DNA of 40,254 bases from Spirochaetales bacterium (GTDB lineage: Bacteria; Spirochaetota; Spirochaetia; JAIPGG01): the NCBI GenBank assembly GCA_021736255.1, contig JAIPGG010000016.1:1-40254 (forward strand). The letters are read 5' to 3'. Position 1 is the first letter of the stretch. Every line of letters begins with the position of its first letter. The notes beneath the pieces are model-generated. The model did not search any database. It saw nothing but the letters and a program-made list of their open reading frames with translations, and was not told the DNA's origin. Positions 20,013-35,435 of this stretch are shown here, in pieces. The translations under genes and the position numbers were made by a program.

Positions 20013-20085
<73 letters not shown>

Positions 20086-20248: not shown

Positions 20249-21250
20249 TCACGATTCATAGGGAATGGGTTTGCACAGGGCATGGAGATTTTCCGGCGGG
20301 GTCTGCGAGGGGATTTCACAGCCGGCGTTGACCATGAAGGGGTTTCCGACCTTGTGATAATCATCGATGATTTGGTCCCGGATGGCTGCGGGGGTTCCCT
20401 GCATTACACCCTTGACCGGGTCGATATTTCCGGTAATGACGATGTGGTCCGGCAGGGTTTTGCGCACCTTTTCCAAATCCACCATGTGATCCACATCGAT
20501 GATGTCGATCGGAAGCCGGGCAATTCCCGGGAGCAGATGGGTAATATTTCCGCAGATGTGAAGCTTGACATACGCACCGGTCTGCCTGATCGATTCACAG
20601 AGTTTTTCTTCCCTCGGCAGGATGTGGCGTTCATACATTGCCGGAGAAAAGAGGCTTGCCACAGCATCGCCGATTCCGATTGTATCGGCACCGGCACGCA
20701 CCTGCGCCTGAGCGAATCCTATAGCGGTCTCGAGGGAAAGGTCCATCAGTTCATCAACGAATTCTTCGTCATCGACACTGTCCATGAGAAAATTGTTTAT
20801 CCCCCGCAGGTCTCCCGCTTCCGCAGCCGGCCCTTCGACCCATCCGAGGATCGAATACTCATTTCCAAAGCGCTTTTTGTAGGTTTCAACCGCTTGTATC
20901 CTGTCCACCAGCCGTTCGGAGGTGACAGGATCGGGTTTTTGAAGAAACGAAAGGTCTTTTGTTTCGGCAAGCGGCGCCGTACAGCGGGGAGCTCCATCGC
21001 TTTGATAAGAAATCTCTCCACCGAAGGCCGAGGTTTCCCGATAGCTGTCGGAGATAGCGCTTAACTGATCGAAGTCGAAATCTGTGATGCATCGATGATT
21101 TGCTTCCACCAGCACCGAATAATCGGAAGCAAATTCCCCATAATTCGATCCGATGTACTCCGCAGCGAACTGCATCAGGATCGGTATACGGGGTAAGAAA
21201 TCCACCTCTTTTCCCTTGATGATGTTTTCATATCGTTGGCGGCTGTTCAT
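20249..21250 (-). CDS. UroD/MtaA-superfamily methyltransferase-like protein (second copy type)
   Basis: A 333-residue relative of uroporphyrinogen decarboxylase. As in the operon protein at 15.9 kb, the zinc-ligand pattern of cobamide-dependent methyltransferases is present: HICGN (H231, C233) and a later Cys in VNAGCEIP (C311), giving H-X-C-X77-C. GNIDP (about 272) is also shared. The two proteins are clearly diverged, so they are not a recent duplication. Start ATG follows AAAGGAGGGG; a TATACT with a weak TTCAGC 17 bases upstream may be its promoter. It has no co-directional partner close by. Substrate unknown; no corrinoid protein or reactivase is seen in the window. Confidence 0.83.
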   Translation of the reverse strand: MNSRQRYENIIKGKEVDFLPRIPILMQFAAEYIGSNYGEFASDYSVLVEANHRCITDFDFDQLSAISDSYRETSAFGGEISYQSDGAPRCTAPLAETKDLSFLQKPDPVTSERLVDRIQAVETYKKRFGNEYSILGWVEGPAAEAGDLRGINNFLMDSVDDEEFVDELMDLSLETAIGFAQAQVRAGADTIGIGDAVASLFSPAMYERHILPREEKLCESIRQTGAYVKLHICGNITHLLPGIARLPIDIIDVDHMVDLEKVRKTLPDHIVITGNIDPVKGVMQGTPAAIRDQIIDDYHKVGNPFMVNAGCEIPSQTPPENLHALCKPIPYES

Positions 21251-21337: not shown

Positions 21338-21739
21338 TTAGTTCCACACCTCGCACGAAAGGCCCGCTATTCCGGAGAAATCTTTATGGTTCAATGTGAC
21401 GAGGGTGCAGCTATGGGCTATTGACGTAGCGGCAATGCAAAGATCAATAACAGGACGCATTGTTCCCGAGCGGATCTGCTCTGCCTGTAAATCTGCATAA
21501 ATTTTCGCTTCATGATAGGTAAACGGGAGAATCGGCAATCTGTTTTTGAGAACATGGGTGTACATTCTTTGTAAAAAATCACTCTGAGATAGTTTGATTC
21601 CTTGTAACACCTCCAGCTCACAAAAAACCGATATGCAGCATGAATTATCACCAACGGCCTTCCACCGGTTTATTACTCCTGTTTGGGGATGCTTTTTCAG
21701 AGGTTGGCTGTAGATTGATGTGTCAAGCAAATACTTCAT
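21338..21739 (-). CDS. vapC: PIN-domain toxin (VapC family)
   Basis: A 133-residue PIN-domain ribonuclease. The expected acidic residues are visible: D6 in YLLDTS, a glutamate in CELEVLQG (E41 or E43), D99 in VIDLCIAATS and D120 in NHKDF. VapC toxins cleave tRNA or rRNA and are neutralised by a bound antitoxin. Its ATG overlaps the stop codon of the upstream antitoxin gene by four bases (ATGA), the usual type II layout. The RNA target cannot be predicted. Confidence in the PIN fold is high; VapC naming follows the family convention. Confidence 0.9.
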   Translation of the reverse strand: MKYLLDTSIYSQPLKKHPQTGVINRWKAVGDNSCCISVFCELEVLQGIKLSQSDFLQRMYTHVLKNRLPILPFTYHEAKIYADLQAEQIRSGTMRPVIDLCIAATSIAHSCTLVTLNHKDFSGIAGLSCEVWN

Positions 21740-22014
21740 TCAGTATGCTCAGGATCTTCGGTTTCGAAGGGCGAATAGAAGGGGTCAACGCGCCTGTCCG
21801 GTTCGAGAAAATCATCTGTATGATCATTGGATTCCAAAAACTCGTCCCGTGCGTTCCAAATCGACGATCCTGTCTTTTGTTCATTTTCCAGCGGAGCTAT
21901 TTGAACAAACGGTTTCCCGCGTCTTGTTATCAACACACTTTCTCCTGTTTGTGCCACATCCTCACATACCCTGGAAAGGTGTGTTTTGATTTCGAAAATG
22001 CCCATTGTTTTCAT
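21736..22014 (-). CDS. Phd/YefM-type antitoxin
   Basis: A 92-residue antitoxin. The N-terminal half matches the Phd/YefM DNA-binding fold (GIFEIKTHLSRVCEDVAQTGESVLITRRGKP), and the acidic C-terminus (about 60-92, rich in Asp and Glu) would wrap the toxin. Start choice is open: GTG at 22017, ATG at 22014 or ATG at 22005. None has a ribosome binding site, and the -10 of the promoter ends only eight bases before the ATG at 22014, so the message may be leaderless from that ATG. A TTAAC-TG-GTTAA palindrome overlaps the -10, consistent with autorepression by the antitoxin-toxin complex. Confidence 0.88.
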   Translation of the reverse strand: MKTMGIFEIKTHLSRVCEDVAQTGESVLITRRGKPFVQIAPLENEQKTGSSIWNARDEFLESNDHTDDFLEPDRRVDPFYSPFETEDPEHTE

Positions 22015-22021
22015 CACGTTT

Positions 22022-22110: not shown

Positions 22111-22170
22111 TAGAGATTCATGAGAGACTGGCTACCCAATTGTGCATAATCCAACAACTACGGAGGCCCC

Positions 22171-24276
22171 ATGTCCCTCGCTCAAGTAATCAAAGTTGAT
22201 CCAGAAAAATGCGTTAATTGTCACATGTGTATTTCTGTATGTCCGGTAAAATACTGTATCGACGGATCGGGAGACACGGTGGAAATCAATCACGACCTGT
22301 GCATCGGCTGCGGCAGATGTATTTCGGCCTGTACTCATGATGCCCGTTCCTCCATTGACGATTTTGATACAATGATGAACTCTTTAGCTTCCGGAAAAGA
22401 AATAATTGCCATTGTTGCTCCGGCCGCCGCAGCATCCTTTCCGGATGAGCACCTTCATCTAAACGGCTATTTAAAGGATCTTGGCATCAAAGCCTTATTT
22501 GATGTCAGTTTCGGGGCAGAGCTCACCGTCAAATCCTACATAGAATACATAAAAGAGAAACAGCCCGACATGGTTATCGCCCAACCCTGCCCGGCAATTG
22601 TGAGTTATATTGAGCTCTATCAACCCGAACTCCTTCGCTACCTTGCTCCTGCCGACAGCCCCATGCTTCACACCATAAAAATGATTCGCGAGTACTACCG
22701 GGAAAACCGAAACGCAGAAATCGCGGTTATTTCTCCATGCCTTGCGAAACGGCGCGAGTTCGACGCAACGGGGTTGGGAGATTATAACGTAACGATGAAC
22801 TCGCTCCTTGCCTACATTTCCAACAACAAAATCGATTTGCGGTCATATCCAAAAATCGGATTCGACAACCCTCCTGCCGAACGGGCGGTGCTTTTTTCTG
22901 CTCCCGGCGGATTGATGCGTACCGCTGAACGGGAGGTACCTGAAATTGTTGAAACGACCCGGAAGATCGAAGGACCTGCTGTAGTGTACGAGTATTTCAA
23001 AAACCTCCCCGGCCTCCTCCGGAAGGAAATGAATCCTCAACTGATAGATTGCCTGAATTGCGAACTCGGGTGTAACGGAGGACCGGGAACACCGAATCAG
23101 GAGAAGCCGATCGACGAGATCGAATATTACGTGGAAAAGCGCCGGAAAGACATTCAGCGGGAGCTCGGAACCAATCAATCTACGAAAAAGGCCCGAAAAA
23201 CCGTGGGCAAACAGACAACCGAATACTGGAAACCGGATCTGTACAAACGCTCATATACGGACCGAAGCAGCTCATTCGAAATAAAAGAACCAAACGATGC
23301 ACAATTCCAGCAAATATACGAACGCATGCTCAAGTACGAACCGACTGATCACTTGAACTGCGCATCTTGTGGATACAACAGCTGCCGGTCAATGGCGATT
23401 GCCATCTTTAATGAGCTAAATAAACCGGAAAATTGCCACCATTACCAACAGCGGATAATCCAGCACGAATCGGAAAAATTGGCTGAACTCTATCAACACC
23501 TTCACAGGGACCTCAGAGACGGGCAGGAAAATGTGACAAAAATTTATGGCCGAGTGGAAAAACTGCAGAATTCATTAGAGAAACAAACGACCTCTCTTTC
23601 CGAGGGCAGCAGCGCTATAGAAGAAATGACTGCGTCCATCGGAAGCGTTTCAAGCATATCTTCTCAACGCCGGGAACTGTTGCAACAGTTAGAGGAAAAA
23701 GCCCAGCAGAGCGAAACCGAGATGGAAGATACGACTGAAGCAATCAACAATATCAGCAACACGGTGGATAAAATCTCTGAAATGGTTACGGTTATCAACG
23801 ACATTGCCGGACGCACCAACCTGCTTTCAATGAATGCGGCGATCGAGGCCGCTCACGCCGGTTCGGCCGGAAGCGGTTTTGCCGTAGTTGCAGAAGAGAT
23901 CCGAAATCTCGCACACGAAACGGAGGAGAATGCCGATCTCGTGTCCAAGACCCTTCGCGATATAACCGACAAAAGCCGTTCTTCACGACAGACCTTCGAG
24001 ACGACCAACAATACGATAAGCCGGATGGTTTCCGACATTCGCTCGGTATCCGAGAGCATCGAGGAAATCCTGGCTCAAACCACGGAGATGTCGGGTGGAA
24101 GCAGCCAGATCTTGAGCTCGGTACGTGATTTAAAAGAGGCAAACACCGAAGTGATGACCTTTGCTTCCGATGTCGAATCCCTGGCGGGGAAGATCAATAC
24201 GACCATGGAAGAAGCGCTGAAACTCAGCCATAACAATATACAAAAGTTCAACGAACTCACAGAAGACACACAATAG
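22171..24276 (+). CDS. Soluble [FeFe]-hydrogenase-like / methyl-accepting chemotaxis fusion protein
   Basis: A 701-residue cytoplasmic protein with four parts. (1) 2[4Fe-4S] ferredoxin domain: C14, C17, C20, C24 and C44, C47, C50, C54. (2) [FeFe]-hydrogenase-like H-cluster domain (about 75-325), with cluster cysteines C140 in AQPCPA, C190 in SPCLAK, and C294/C297/C301 in [14 protein letters not shown]. In catalytic enzymes the first motif is TSCCPxW; here the proton-relay Cys is Pro. (3) [11 protein letters not shown] Fe-S motif (C397, C400, C405, C422). (4) A chemoreceptor signalling domain with coiled coil and hairpin tip ([18 protein letters not shown], about 547-564). No membrane segment or HAMP is seen. 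It should couple H2 or redox state to CheA/CheW. CGGAGG precedes the ATG. Domains are seen; H2 sensing is inferred, and loss of the relay Cys argues against fast catalysis. Confidence 0.92.
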
Positions 24277-25650: not shown

Positions 25651-28380
25651 TCATCCTGCCGCCTCTTCTGTCCACCTCCGTGCAGAGAGAGCAACCAGAA
25701 GATAGAGGCACACCGCGCCGACAAAAACCAGCCGAAATCCGGCGGTCATTGAAAGGAGGAGCGCCAGGGGGGTGGCAGAGACGGATGCAACGCCGTTGGC
25801 TGCCCACATGAGAGGGACAAAATCCGGATCCTTCGAGCGCATATAGGCAATGCCGGCAGGGAAAAAGACTCCCAACACGAAAGAAACGGGGAAGAGGAGC
25901 GCGAGGGTGAGAGTGAAGCGCCCTGCGGTGGGCATTTCCACTCCGGCCTGCAGCAGGGGGTCGAGTCCGAGAAGATAGACCAGGCCTAGGGCAGCCAGGA
26001 TAAGACCTGCACGCAACACCCTTTGGCCGGGGCGCGGGGCCAACCGATGCTGCAGAGCGCTGCCGCCCCCGGCAAAAACCAGAATCCCCGTGAGCACTGC
26101 AGCCGTAGAATAAACCGGGTCCCCCATGAACTGGGTAAGCCTTTGAATCAACAGAATCTCGAAGAACATGAAGGCAAATCCGATTCCCATAAAGTGAAGC
26201 AGTCCTTCCAGCAGGGACCTCCGGCGGGCCGGGTTCAGGCGGCTTTTCAAGGGATCCTGTTCTCTGCGCCCGCCGCAGGTTCGAGGCGCGAGGCTGCTCC
26301 TGTGCCCGCCGCTTCTGTGTCGATAGAAGAGCATGGGGACCAGTACCAGGACAACCGCCAGGACGGTAACCTCCACAAAGGTCAAGGTAACCACCGCGTA
26401 GCCGAGGTCTATTCGGCGAAACCAGTCGCGCCCGTAACTTTCGGTGTAATTCTCCAGACTGGACCACTTAAAGAAGCTGTGGAAATACGGTTTGTCATCG
26501 GTGGCAGGACGCACGTTATAGACCCAGTCTTCGTAAAAGGTCTCGGGGAAGGTGCCGGCACTGTTGGGTTGCCATTTAGCGGATTCGGAAGCCGGGCCTT
26601 CTAAGCTCCGGTCGGCTCGGGAGGCTTCGCCGGCCTCGAGTATTCGAAGAGCTGCGTGGTGGTAATAGGAATAAGGCTTTCCTTCAGGACCGGGGAGGCG
26701 GTTTCTCTGCTCCCGGCTGCCCCACTGAGTTCCAGGCAGGTAGACGATGTCCAACTGCAGAGGGCCGGCCATCTGTTTGATATGATCCTTGTCATCTTCC
26801 GAGAGAGCCGTCCGCGCAGCAATCGTGGTAACGGCAAGATAATTTCGCATGACAGCGATCTTCGATGCCGCAGGCCGGCCGGATTCCGTCTGATCGACCA
26901 AGGGAGAATCGCGGGGTGCTGTGTTTTCCGTTTGGGCAGGGGCCGACGCGGCCGCGCCCTCGATGCCGGCCGACAGGGTGGAGAGTATCCGGATATTGTC
27001 CCTCGGCGGCAGGTGAATACCACGGGTAACCGCAATGAGTCCGCCTTCAGCAAGGCGGGTATACGCTTCGCCAAAGGCCTCCCGGGTGAGCAGATAGTCC
27101 TGGCTGAGCGATCCCATCGCCCCCGAACCTGCAGGCAACGCCTCCGCTCCTACGAACTGGATAATGTCGAACTCCTTATCGGTTTGCTGCAGGTAGAGCC
27201 GGGGATCCTTTGAAACAACAGTAACGTCGGGGCCCTGATATACCCCGCCGCTTTCGGCTGAGAGCTCCTCCCGCATGAGCCGAATGAGCTGCGGATTCCT
27301 CTGGACAACCGTTATCTTTGAGGCATCGAAGCGCCGGGCAAGCCAAACATTTACCCCGCCGGTTTCCCCTAAAAGCAGAACCCTCGCCCCCGGACGCAGC
27401 CGGTAGGGAATCGACTGAGGAACGGTTTGGAGCACATCGGCCTTGTCATCCGAGTCGATTCTGAATATGGTCCCCGCCGCATTACCGTCGTTGAATAGAC
27501 TGAGTTGAGGCGGCGGAGGTGAACCTGTGGGCGAGGCAAAGAGTGTACTGTGAAGGGTTTGTGCCTCGTAGACATCGATCTGCCCCCGTGGGCCGCAGGT
27601 CCGGGCTACATGCTCGGCGCTCCCCTGCTCTTCGAGGCGCTCGAGCTGAGCTATGTCCTTGTACTGGTCGTATTCGACCCCGCTTTGCCGGGCCTGAAAT
27701 AAACCGCCGGCACCAACAACGATGGCCAGAACAAACCAGATCAGCGCTTTTCGCCGGCTCCGGGCCGGGGATGCTTTGCCTGCGTCGTTCCCGGCGCTCG
27801 CTTCTTCGGAGGCTTCCACCCGCATGTACCGCAGCCACAGCCCGAAGGCGGCAATGCCGAGCAAGGCTAAGCCCTGGGGCAAATCGACGGCGGGGACGAG
27901 AAACAGGGTCCCGACACCTACAAGCGCCCCTACTCCGCTGCCGAAAAGATTAGCGGCATAGAGCCTGCCGGCCTTCCGGGGAAAGCTGCTGAGTACCAGC
28001 CCCACAAAAAGGCCGGCAAAGAAAAAGGGAAGAAACAGTAGGAAAATTTCGAGGGCCATCCGGCCGGCTTGCCCAAAATCATACAGCAGGTACTGCATGT
28101 CGGGCCGGACGGCCATTGCCAGGGGGTAAGAGGCAGCGCTGCTTATGACAAAGAGGCCGATCGCTCGGGCGCCCCACAGTTCGATGTGATCTTTTATCCG
28201 GCTCCACAGGAGGCTCAAGGCGGTTCCGCTTGCGCCGAATCCGAGGAGGGCCGTACCGATAATCAGGTAGGCGAAATGGTAATAGCCGGTAATAGATAGC
28301 GCGCGCAGGAGCACGATCTGCAGGGCAAGGACGGCAGCTGATATAATGGCGATCGATGTCCAGAGTGCCGGGCGTTTCAT
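25651..28380 (-). CDS. Membrane-embedded spermidine-synthase-like protein
   Basis: A 909-residue protein with about seven N-terminal membrane segments (residues 8-185), a soluble Rossmann region (about 250-640) and a C-terminal membrane block (about 685-905). The soluble part has the nucleotide-binding loop VLLLGETGG (334-342) and the FDIIQF strand seen in polyamine aminopropyltransferases. Proteins of this layout are usually annotated as spermidine synthase-like membrane proteins; their activity is largely untested. Two low-complexity stretches occur (about 190-212 and 700-730). The glycine-rich loop has E-T-G-G rather than the usual G-x-G-D-G, so true aminopropyl transfer is uncertain. The start follows GAGGGGAT, 15 bases after the exported isoaspartyl methyltransferase gene, suggesting an operon. 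Confidence 0.8.
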   Translation of the reverse strand: MKRPALWTSIAIISAAVLALQIVLLRALSITGYYHFAYLIIGTALLGFGASGTALSLLWSRIKDHIELWGARAIGLFVISSAASYPLAMAVRPDMQYLLYDFGQAGRMALEIFLLFLPFFFAGLFVGLVLSSFPRKAGRLYAANLFGSGVGALVGVGTLFLVPAVDLPQGLALLGIAAFGLWLRYMRVEASEEASAGNDAGKASPARSRRKALIWFVLAIVVGAGGLFQARQSGVEYDQYKDIAQLERLEEQGSAEHVARTCGPRGQIDVYEAQTLHSTLFASPTGSPPPPQLSLFNDGNAAGTIFRIDSDDKADVLQTVPQSIPYRLRPGARVLLLGETGGVNVWLARRFDASKITVVQRNPQLIRLMREELSAESGGVYQGPDVTVVSKDPRLYLQQTDKEFDIIQFVGAEALPAGSGAMGSLSQDYLLTREAFGEAYTRLAEGGLIAVTRGIHLPPRDNIRILSTLSAGIEGAAASAPAQTENTAPRDSPLVDQTESGRPAASKIAVMRNYLAVTTIAARTALSEDDKDHIKQMAGPLQLDIVYLPGTQWGSREQRNRLPGPEGKPYSYYHHAALRILEAGEASRADRSLEGPASESAKWQPNSAGTFPETFYEDWVYNVRPATDDKPYFHSFFKWSSLENYTESYGRDWFRRIDLGYAVVTLTFVEVTVLAVVLVLVPMLFYRHRSGGHRSSLAPRTCGGRREQDPLKSRLNPARRRSLLEGLLHFMGIGFAFMFFEILLIQRLTQFMGDPVYSTAAVLTGILVFAGGGSALQHRLAPRPGQRVLRAGLILAALGLVYLLGLDPLLQAGVEMPTAGRFTLTLALLFPVSFVLGVFFPAGIAYMRSKDPDFVPLMWAANGVASVSATPLALLLSMTAGFRLVFVGAVCLYLLVALSARRWTEEAAG

Positions 28381-33245: not shown

Positions 33246-35435
33246 ATGAAGATACGTTCAAAGATTTTTATTCCGATTTTCGCTGTTTTTATCATTTCAC
33301 TCTCTGCTATAATAGGTTATATATTATATCAGGAAGCAATCGCCCTGGAAGAAACCATAACAAACCAAACAACCGAGCTTTCAAAATACGAAAGTGAACG
33401 ATTCGCCACCCTGCTCGACAAAGCATATTATCATGGGCAAAGCCTGGCTCAGTCCCTCCAAACACTGAGCGAAAACCCTGCTTCCCAAAACCGTGAAACA
33501 GCCCTCAGACTTGTACAATCGGATCTGCAGAATTCACCCGAATTCATGGGAACGTGGGTCTGTTTCGAACCGAATGGTTTCGATCGAAAGGACGAAGAGT
33601 TCCAAGGCCAAGACCCATTCACGGAGAACGGGCGCTTTGCCTCGTACTGGTACCGCGTGGATGGAGAGCTTAAATCGATGGCCCTCGAGGATTACCAAAG
33701 TGCACAATGGTATACCCGTGCGAAAAACTCAGGCCGTCCTGTCCTGCTCGATCCTTTCACGTATGAGGTGGAGGGAACATCTGTGCTCATGACTACAATG
33801 GCGTTTCCGATCCGACGAAACGGGGAGGTAATCGGAGTATCAGGGATCGACATTACCCTCGAGAGCTTTCAGCAAATGATAAAAGACGTAACTCCTCTCG
33901 GAACCGGTTACAGCTTTATTGTCTCTGATCAGGGAACAGTAATCGCCCACCCGAAGGAAGATATTATAGCCACCGGCGCCGCCCAATACTTTGAAAAACC
34001 CGAGGATTTCACTCGCGCTCTCGAAGAAGGGGCTGTTTACCGGGAAAAAAAAGAAGCAGTAGGAGGAAGTCAAAGCAACTCCCTTTTTATCATGGTACCA
34101 ATGCAAATAGGCGAGCTGGAAAAAACATGGGGCTTTGGTATATCCGTACCGCTGACCTCCGTTAGAGAAGAAATTCAGCATCTTCTTTTCATAGGAATAG
34201 TCATCGGTATTATCGGTCTAGCGCTCATGACTGCTGTCCTCCTGTATCTTGCCGGCAGAATTGTACGACCTATTCACAGCACAACCGAAATGCTCAGTGA
34301 AATTGCAGAAGGGGCAGGAGACCTTACCCAAAAACTTTCCGTTCAAACCAACGATGAAATCGGGACTCTGGCCGACTATTTCAATACCTTTATGGACTTT
34401 CAGAAGAACCTCATTTCCGATCTCCAGAAAACCACCGAATCGGTGGACAGGGTGAAAAACGATGTTGTCGCAGCTTCTGAAGAAACCTCCTCTTCTATTC
34501 AGGAGATCGGCGCCACAATAGATTCGATCGGTAACCAGGTGGACAGCCTCGACAATAACCTCGACAACTCGGTCAGCGCCGTAGAACAGCTCAACGCAGG
34601 AATAGAAAGCATCGACCAACAAATATCGGAACAAAGCACCATGGTTGAAGAAACCACCTCCGCAGTGAACCAGATAGCCGCCTCCCTGCACAACACCGCA
34701 CGGATATCACAGAACAAACAGGATTCAGCCCAAAAACTCAAAAGTGTTGTAGAAACCGGGAGAAACGATCTTCATACTACAAACGAAGCTGTCAACGAGG
34801 TTACGCACAAACTCGAATCGGTTCAGAATATGAGTTCGGTGATTAACAGCATTGCCTCGCAAACGAACATGCTTTCAATGAACGCGGCTATCGAAGCCGC
34901 ACATGCAGGGGAATCAGGAAAGGGTTTTGCCGTAGTGGCAGAAGAGATACGAAAGCTTGCCGAACAGGCTTCCGACTCCTCAAAGGAAATCACAACAGCA
35001 GTAGAAGAGATTACTCACTCCATCGAGCGGAGCAAAGAATCAACCGGAACCATTACCAACCAATTCGAAGAGATCATGTCCGAGACCGAATCCACAGTCG
35101 AGGCCTTCAACGAGATCAGCTCGAGCCTCAACGAAATGAGTACCGGCAGCGACGAGATCCTCCAGGCCGCTCAAGGACTCAACGACATCACAAGCAAAAT
35201 CAAGGAAAGCTCCGGAGAAATGAAATCCGGTATTTCCGACATCCTCAAAAGCGAAGAGAGTCTCAAGGAGGTTTCCAGTTCCACCCGTTCCGGCATCGGA
35301 GAAATCCGTACCGGCGTCAAACAGATAGTCGAAGCATCGACGGAACTGGTGGAGCTGAGCAGCTCCCTCAACGATATCGTTAACACGATGAAAAGCAAGA
35401 CCGACCAATTCAAGGTGGAAGACTCCGCCGGCTAA
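33246..35435 (+). CDS. Methyl-accepting chemotaxis protein with Cache sensor domain
   Basis: A 729-residue transmembrane chemoreceptor. First membrane segment at about 7-29, an extracytoplasmic double-Cache-like domain (about 35-300, with [17 protein letters not shown] and [12 protein letters not shown]), second membrane segment (about 312-337), HAMP (about 338-390), and a long signalling coiled coil. The conserved tip [21 protein letters not shown] (about 541-561) contacts CheA and CheW. The PxxDPF-type ligand pocket hints at amino acids or small organic acids, but this is not decisive. The ATG has no ribosome binding site, and a strong promoter ends seven bases before it. It converges with the sensor kinase gene with only nine bases between stop codons. 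Confidence 0.95.

Follow-up and report, generated by a model that had tools for sequence, protein, structure and literature searches.

Background

Signalling by sensory [FeFe]-hydrogenases is called unresolved in papers of 2020 to 2026. Two such enzymes have been characterised. TmHydS from T. maritima (group C/M2f) has a 2[4Fe-4S] domain, an H-domain and a C-terminal four-cysteine cluster, and in it the proton-relay cysteine and both methionines are replaced (PMC10055695); its output is a PAS domain. TamHydS from T. mathranii (group D/M2e) is without an output domain (PMC8163306, PMC10407848, PMC13104023). The relay position is occupied by alanine in both proteins (A131 in TmHydS, A137 in TamHydS; PMC10407848), and the equivalents of M353 and M497 are Gly and Ser in TmHydS and Ser and Leu in TamHydS, a Cx2Cx4Cx16C spacing being given for groups C and D (PMC8163306). 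In TamHydS, 1 atm H2 leaves the C-terminal cluster unreduced, yet alters the secondary structure, and a structural role of the cluster was left open (PMC13104023).

For H2 taxis there is a report from the archaeon Methanococcus maripaludis (Brileya 2013, cited in PMC4266047). In its class description, HydDB labels [FeFe] group C2 'Chemotactic (putative)', with H2 possibly sensed through methyl-accepting chemotaxis proteins (MCPs) (PMC5037454). A survey of acetogens encountered C2 members and then discarded them. Ballor and colleagues reportedly proposed in 2012 that treponemes have H2 sensors, possibly with a role in chemotaxis. Our literature search for H2 chemoreceptors yielded HydDB C2, one passing mention and nothing else.

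A soluble chemoreceptor with a hydrogenase-like sensor

The window analysed here is a stretch of 40,254 nucleotides from a Spirochaetales bacterium. Its positions 22171-24276 (+) hold one uninterrupted frame of 701 codons, and a GGAGG ribosome-binding site was read 4 nt 5' of the ATG (22162-22166, +). We give a probability of roughly 55% to the reading that the encoded protein is a cytoplasmic chemoreceptor for H2 or low-potential redox, in which an H-domain matured by HydEFG feeds into the CheA/CheW array. Cofactor occupancy, ligand, array membership and direction of the response are what we infer from the domains, motifs, modelled fold, helix junction, hairpin tip and genes described below.

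A Pfam search, in which each domain scored above its own curated cut-off, revealed four modules, all encoded on the + strand. The 2[4Fe-4S] ferredoxin domain (22210-22332; Fer4 pair at aa 7-59) has cysteines 14, 17, 20, 24, 44, 47, 50 and 54, all eight invariant in an alignment of 70 relatives. It is followed by the H-domain (Fe_hyd_lg_C, PF02906; aa 76-305, 22396-23085), matched at E 6.7e-32 with 111.5 bits (cut-off 22.1). A match to FeS (PF04060; aa 395-422, E 5.4e-7) marks a C-terminal Cx2Cx4Cx16C [4Fe-4S] site (23359-23436), whose four cysteines (397, 400, 405 and 422) are also invariant in 70 full-length relatives. The MCPsignal domain (PF00015) lies at aa 505-669 (E 2.9e-34). No membrane segment was found in the protein, the highest 19-residue Kyte-Doolittle mean being 1.36. 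This domain order in one frame, like the missing membrane segment, had been proposed in the initial annotation, and both are confirmed by the Pfam search and the hydropathy profile; its proposal of a soluble chemoreceptor whose sensor is an H-domain is supported.

The hydrogenase genes of the organism lie elsewhere: none was found in the window near the receptor gene, which counts against a receptor for H2. An operon link to hydrogenase genes was rejected: around the receptor gene lie a PIN/Phd pair, a desaturase gene and a gene of the URO-D family. Directly upstream and divergent from the receptor gene is the pair of PIN-domain toxin and Phd-YefM antitoxin (21338-22017, -), and the URO-D family protein (20249-21250, -) may be a methyltransferase of the corrinoid type and not a haem enzyme. 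The window further contains a tRNA-Met (CAT) gene (20013-20085, +), a membrane chemoreceptor with dCache_1, HAMP and MCPsignal domains (33246-35435, +), and a probable membrane protein of 909 aa (25651-28380, -) that has no Pfam match at E 1e-5. By eye, the latter appears to carry a spermidine-synthase-like domain between membrane segments.

The H-site and its place among [FeFe]-hydrogenases

All four H-site cysteines are there (C140, C190, C297 and C301). The L1 motif, AQPCPA (22579-22596, +), supplies the ligand Cys140 and has Pro139 at the position of the proton-relay cysteine (C299 of CpI). The L2 motif, SPCLAK (22732-22749, +), contains Ser188 at the M353 position, the ligand Cys190 and Lys193 at the K358 position, and the 12-residue L3 motif including DCLNC (23047-23082, +) contains Leu295 at the M497 position and the ligands Cys297 and Cys301. 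The complete cysteine set and the exchange of the relay cysteine for proline were both noted in the initial annotation and are plainly seen. Together with its fold, the four cysteines make this part of the protein an H-domain. Residues Q138-P139-C140, C190, K193, D293, L295, C297 and C301 are invariant in 70 full-length relatives, and so is the P231-like Pro84; the constancy of the four H-site cysteines, of Pro84 and of the K358-like Lys193 favours the H2-receptor reading. In our literature search we did not find the invariant relay proline described.

The combination of a replaced relay cysteine with Ser for M353 and Leu for M497 matches the pattern of the slow sensory enzyme TamHydS (PMC8163306), with which the window protein also has the Cx2Cx4Cx16C spacing in common, and this speaks for H2 as the input. 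On the other side stand the relay proline, unlike the alanine of both characterised sensory enzymes, and Asp293, which by motif alignment occupies the position of the L3 glutamate E289 of TamHydS. Nor did the literature search find an H-cluster demonstrated for any member of the clade described next, which likewise counts against an H2 receptor.

A phylogeny against the hydrogenase groups, proposed as a check in the initial annotation, was built with rows for groups A, B and C chosen by motif and architecture from named genomes and from the organism's own. The sequences with the QPCP motif formed one clade (support 100/100), separate from groups A (100/100), B (99/85) and C (94/88). When more distant relatives (33-44% identity) were added, several with QPC and some with other outputs, the sensor clade with these relatives was still recovered at 100/100. 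The window protein is outside group A: in place of TSCCP, MPCTAK and E-x-M-x-C it has QPCP, SPCLAK and DCLNC, and the tree splits them at 100/100. Membership in the TmHydS-like group C was rejected, since the protein has MCP as its output and no PAS, has a Pro/Ser/Leu pocket instead of one of the Ala131/Gly177/Ser267 type, and falls in a separate clade. Its residues do agree with group D (Cx2Cx4Cx16C, Ser188 where Ser or Thr is expected at 353, Leu295 for Leu at 497). Group D itself is represented by a single D-like row (L155), whose branch is long and whose placement is not firm.

The QPCP clade likely corresponds to HydDB C2, a match of descriptions rather than of sequences: both tie a sensory-type [FeFe] H-domain to MCPs, and in HydDB the function is putative (PMC5037454). 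The sensor module (aa 1-425) was found at E <= 1e-60 in 87/393 sampled Spirochaetota genomes. GTDB genome contigs hold at least 521 relatives, the best 80 of which come from Spirochaetota, Bacteroidota, Bacillota, Planctomycetota, Ignavibacteriota, Geobacteraceae, Verrucomicrobiota, Acidobacteriota and others. Among 68 relatives searched with Pfam, every one had the H-domain and 59 had MCPsignal, the association that HydDB gives for C2; PAS was present in 7, SpoIIE in 5 and HATPase in 3. MCP fusion is the rule within the QPCP clade. The novelty implied in the initial annotation is not supported: a putative chemotactic class is on record in HydDB and the fusion occurs widely, so that the kind is known though uncharacterised.

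Related H-domain sensors with other outputs include a HATPase protein with a CheA-like look (L113 2757-5492), a hybrid histidine kinase with Hpt (L126 5935-9555), a PAS-SpoIIE protein (L070 3397-6435) and, by eye only, an apparent GGDEF-EAL protein (L230 1701-4274).

That the window gene is an artefact of assembly or gene fusion has a negligible probability. We found no evidence favouring this explanation, and it is excluded because dozens of independent genomes carry the H-domain/MCP fusion, and the organism's own genome has two copies of it.

The modelled sensor is joined directly to a Tsr-like hairpin

An AlphaFold model built with 70 relatives had a mean pLDDT of 89.5, with values of ~90 or higher across the sensor. 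The solved structures at the top of a Foldseek search were the [FeFe]-hydrogenases CbA5H, that of D. desulfuricans, HydABC and CpI, in keeping with an H2 receptor. The signalling part is an MCP hairpin of two long antiparallel helices at aa 423-562 and 564-700 (23437-24270, +). Its first helix begins in the model one residue past Cys422, the final ligand of the C-terminal cluster, and neither a HAMP domain nor a linker was found between cluster and hairpin. This direct junction was not found described in the literature search.

The signalling part aligned without gaps to residues 289-487 of E. coli Tsr over ~199 residues, placing Glu478 and Glu485 on the Tsr methylation positions 304 and 311. 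The CheA/CheW-binding tip (aa 547-580; 23809-23910, +) is of the canonical type in a tip comparison and retains N555, E559, F570, E576, R578 and L580; it departs from Tsr at H562, S565 and S568 (R388, E391 and R394 in Tsr). The protein is therefore an MCP by its signalling domain with a conserved hairpin tip, and the ungapped match of tip and arms supports the H2-receptor reading. Hairpin, tip and methylation-type Glu positions are like those of Tsr and other MCPs; in contrast to those receptors, it has no membrane, periplasmic or HAMP parts, and its sensor is the H-domain.

Maturases, hydrogenase and chemotaxis systems in the same genome

The assembly of the organism's own genome (G000) comprises 133 contigs and reaches 82% completeness. 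HydG, HydE and HydF, for which the initial annotation had advised a search, lie side by side on contig C65 (4150-7825), each above its cut-off. HydA is accompanied on contig C79 by genes resembling NuoF and NuoE and by one for a Rex-like regulator, all named from reading their sequences; this hydrogenase is predicted to be of the HydABC type, a bifurcating-type member of group A. Both loci favour the H2-receptor reading. A fifth H-domain gene, on C93 (L005; 3-461, -), is cut at the contig end, has the look of a group C sensor and begins MKERAIYTEATQC.

CheA and CheW genes are present as well. One CheA gene lies with CheR and CheB on contig C114; the other lies on C31 with CheW, CheB, CheR and MCPs. 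The C114 cluster and the 14 MCP domains scoring above cut-off in this genome agree with a chemotactic role of the H2 receptor. A paralogue of the window protein (L004; 668 aa, 59% identical), also a fused H-domain/MCP protein, adjoins the second Che cluster on C31. Its tip is divergent (IAFNAxLEAxxAG; IAFNAELEASSAG) and is common to the two receptors next to the CheW/CheB/CheR/CheA cluster there. The locus (L187 on C31; 2966-14806) comprises two MCP-like receptors with the divergent tip, CheW, a CheW-like gene, CheB, CheR and CheA-REC, with L004 at its edge.

The tip of the window protein is canonical, like that of most other receptors of the genome. From tips and neighbourhoods, the simplest reading is that the two H-domain receptors may feed two different arrays. 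Such a pairing with two Che systems was not found described in the literature search. The existence of two CheA systems, the divergent tip that the paralogue has in common with the receptors beside the C31 cluster, and the three departures from Tsr in the window protein's tip (His for R388, Ser for E391 and for R394) would also suit a protein whose H-domain senses H2 or redox and whose MCP part serves a non-motility CheA pathway or merely modulates neighbouring receptors. We consider this improbable, as the tip of the window protein resembles those of most other receptors of its own genome.

The sensor in genomes with and without recognised maturases

HydG scored above cut-off in 55 of the 87 sensor-bearing Spirochaetota genomes and was missing in 32; 13 of the latter are at least 99% complete, and G157 and G232 consist of two contigs each. 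HydF was recognised in one of the 32 and not in the other 31. A tblastn search of 2.16 of the ~2.9 Mb of G157 recovered a group B protein as well as the sensor, the latter at 56% identity; in the same 2.16 Mb it found neither HydE nor HydG, and for HydF a short GTPase-domain match only. Persistence of such a sensor in genomes lacking HydG and HydF was not found described in the literature search. The initial annotation had held that a genome lacking HydEFG, combined with a protein that binds no H-cluster, would mean a plain Fe-S redox receptor. The genomic half of this is found in relatives, and the window protein's own genome has all three maturases.

The 32 genomes count against an H2 receptor. 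Along with the G157 search, they lend weight to the explanation that the protein is a redox (or O2) chemoreceptor holding [4Fe-4S] clusters only, in which the H-site would carry a cubane and never [2Fe] and would report ferredoxin or redox state, not H2. The H-site points the same way: in 18 sensors from genomes with HydG and 11 from genomes without, the H-site cysteines, Pro139, Ser188, Lys193, Asp293 and Leu295 are identical in all. Residues that would separate the two sets were sought and rejected, the only shifts being weak (137 A/S, 231 F/Y, 399 S/A and, at 242, Phe more often Tyr) and probably phylogenetic.

Against this explanation stand the HydEFG genes of the window protein's own genome and the co-occurrence of sensor and HydG above expectation (odds ratio 5.5, p 2e-11, kinship ignored). 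Moreover, the maturase gap is not specific to the sensor, because the same genomes retain canonical-looking group A or B hydrogenases: all 32 have at least one other H-domain protein. Scores and motifs class these as group A-like in 13 genomes and as only group B-like in 19, and the motifs were normal in the proteins that were read. Each sensor-positive Spirochaetota genome checked has HydG or another [FeFe] H-domain, which supports the H2-receptor reading. We regard a [4Fe-4S]-only receptor as the main alternative, though a less likely one. The corresponding proposal for the whole QPCP clade is also rather unlikely: its H-domains would be hydrogenase-derived [4Fe-4S]-only redox sensors and not hydrogenases, keeping the cysteine cage without [2Fe] and driving chemotaxis, histidine-kinase and SpoIIE-type outputs via one common junction of C-terminal cluster and helix.

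Canonical-looking group A hydrogenases without recognised HydG were seen in G063, G271, G321, G343, G138, G215, G252, G262, G268, G300, G357, G189 and G245, and HydF in only one of these 13; either the searches missed maturases or maturation there is unexplained. Group B-like hydrogenases of ~485-540 aa with intact motifs (L207-L222) occur in Spirochaetota genomes, mostly of one genus, without HydG and HydF. In HydG-less genomes, either maturation proceeds without recognisable HydG and HydF, or several H-domain proteins work without [2Fe]. The gaps are a puzzle and not a disproof of H2 sensing. Missing HydG and HydF with an unchanged H-site lower the H2-sensor claim for the clade and do not settle it for the window protein.

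Discussion

In the H2-receptor reading, the input would come from the N-terminal 2[4Fe-4S] domain together with the H-domain, which belongs to a distinct sensory clade (QPCP) and is probably matured by HydEFG of the same genome to a slow-turnover H-cluster. This cluster would report H2 or, what amounts to the same, the redox poise of H2/ferredoxin that the organism's own hydrogenase sets. A conformational change may then travel via the C-terminal [4Fe-4S] subdomain directly to the initial helix of the Tsr-like hairpin, and the hairpin would join the main CheA/CheW array, so that swimming is biased by H2 or redox. The proposed order, from H-site event through C-terminal cluster subdomain, helix and hairpin tip to CheA, goes beyond sequence and model. 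That the cluster subdomain caps the signalling helix directly fits a structural relay.

Since one protein chain carries both sensor and output, with the C-terminal cluster as the joint, an H2 or redox input would be directly readable as CheA kinase activity, and genomes free of maturases provide a natural test of the H-site's need for the [2Fe] cofactor.
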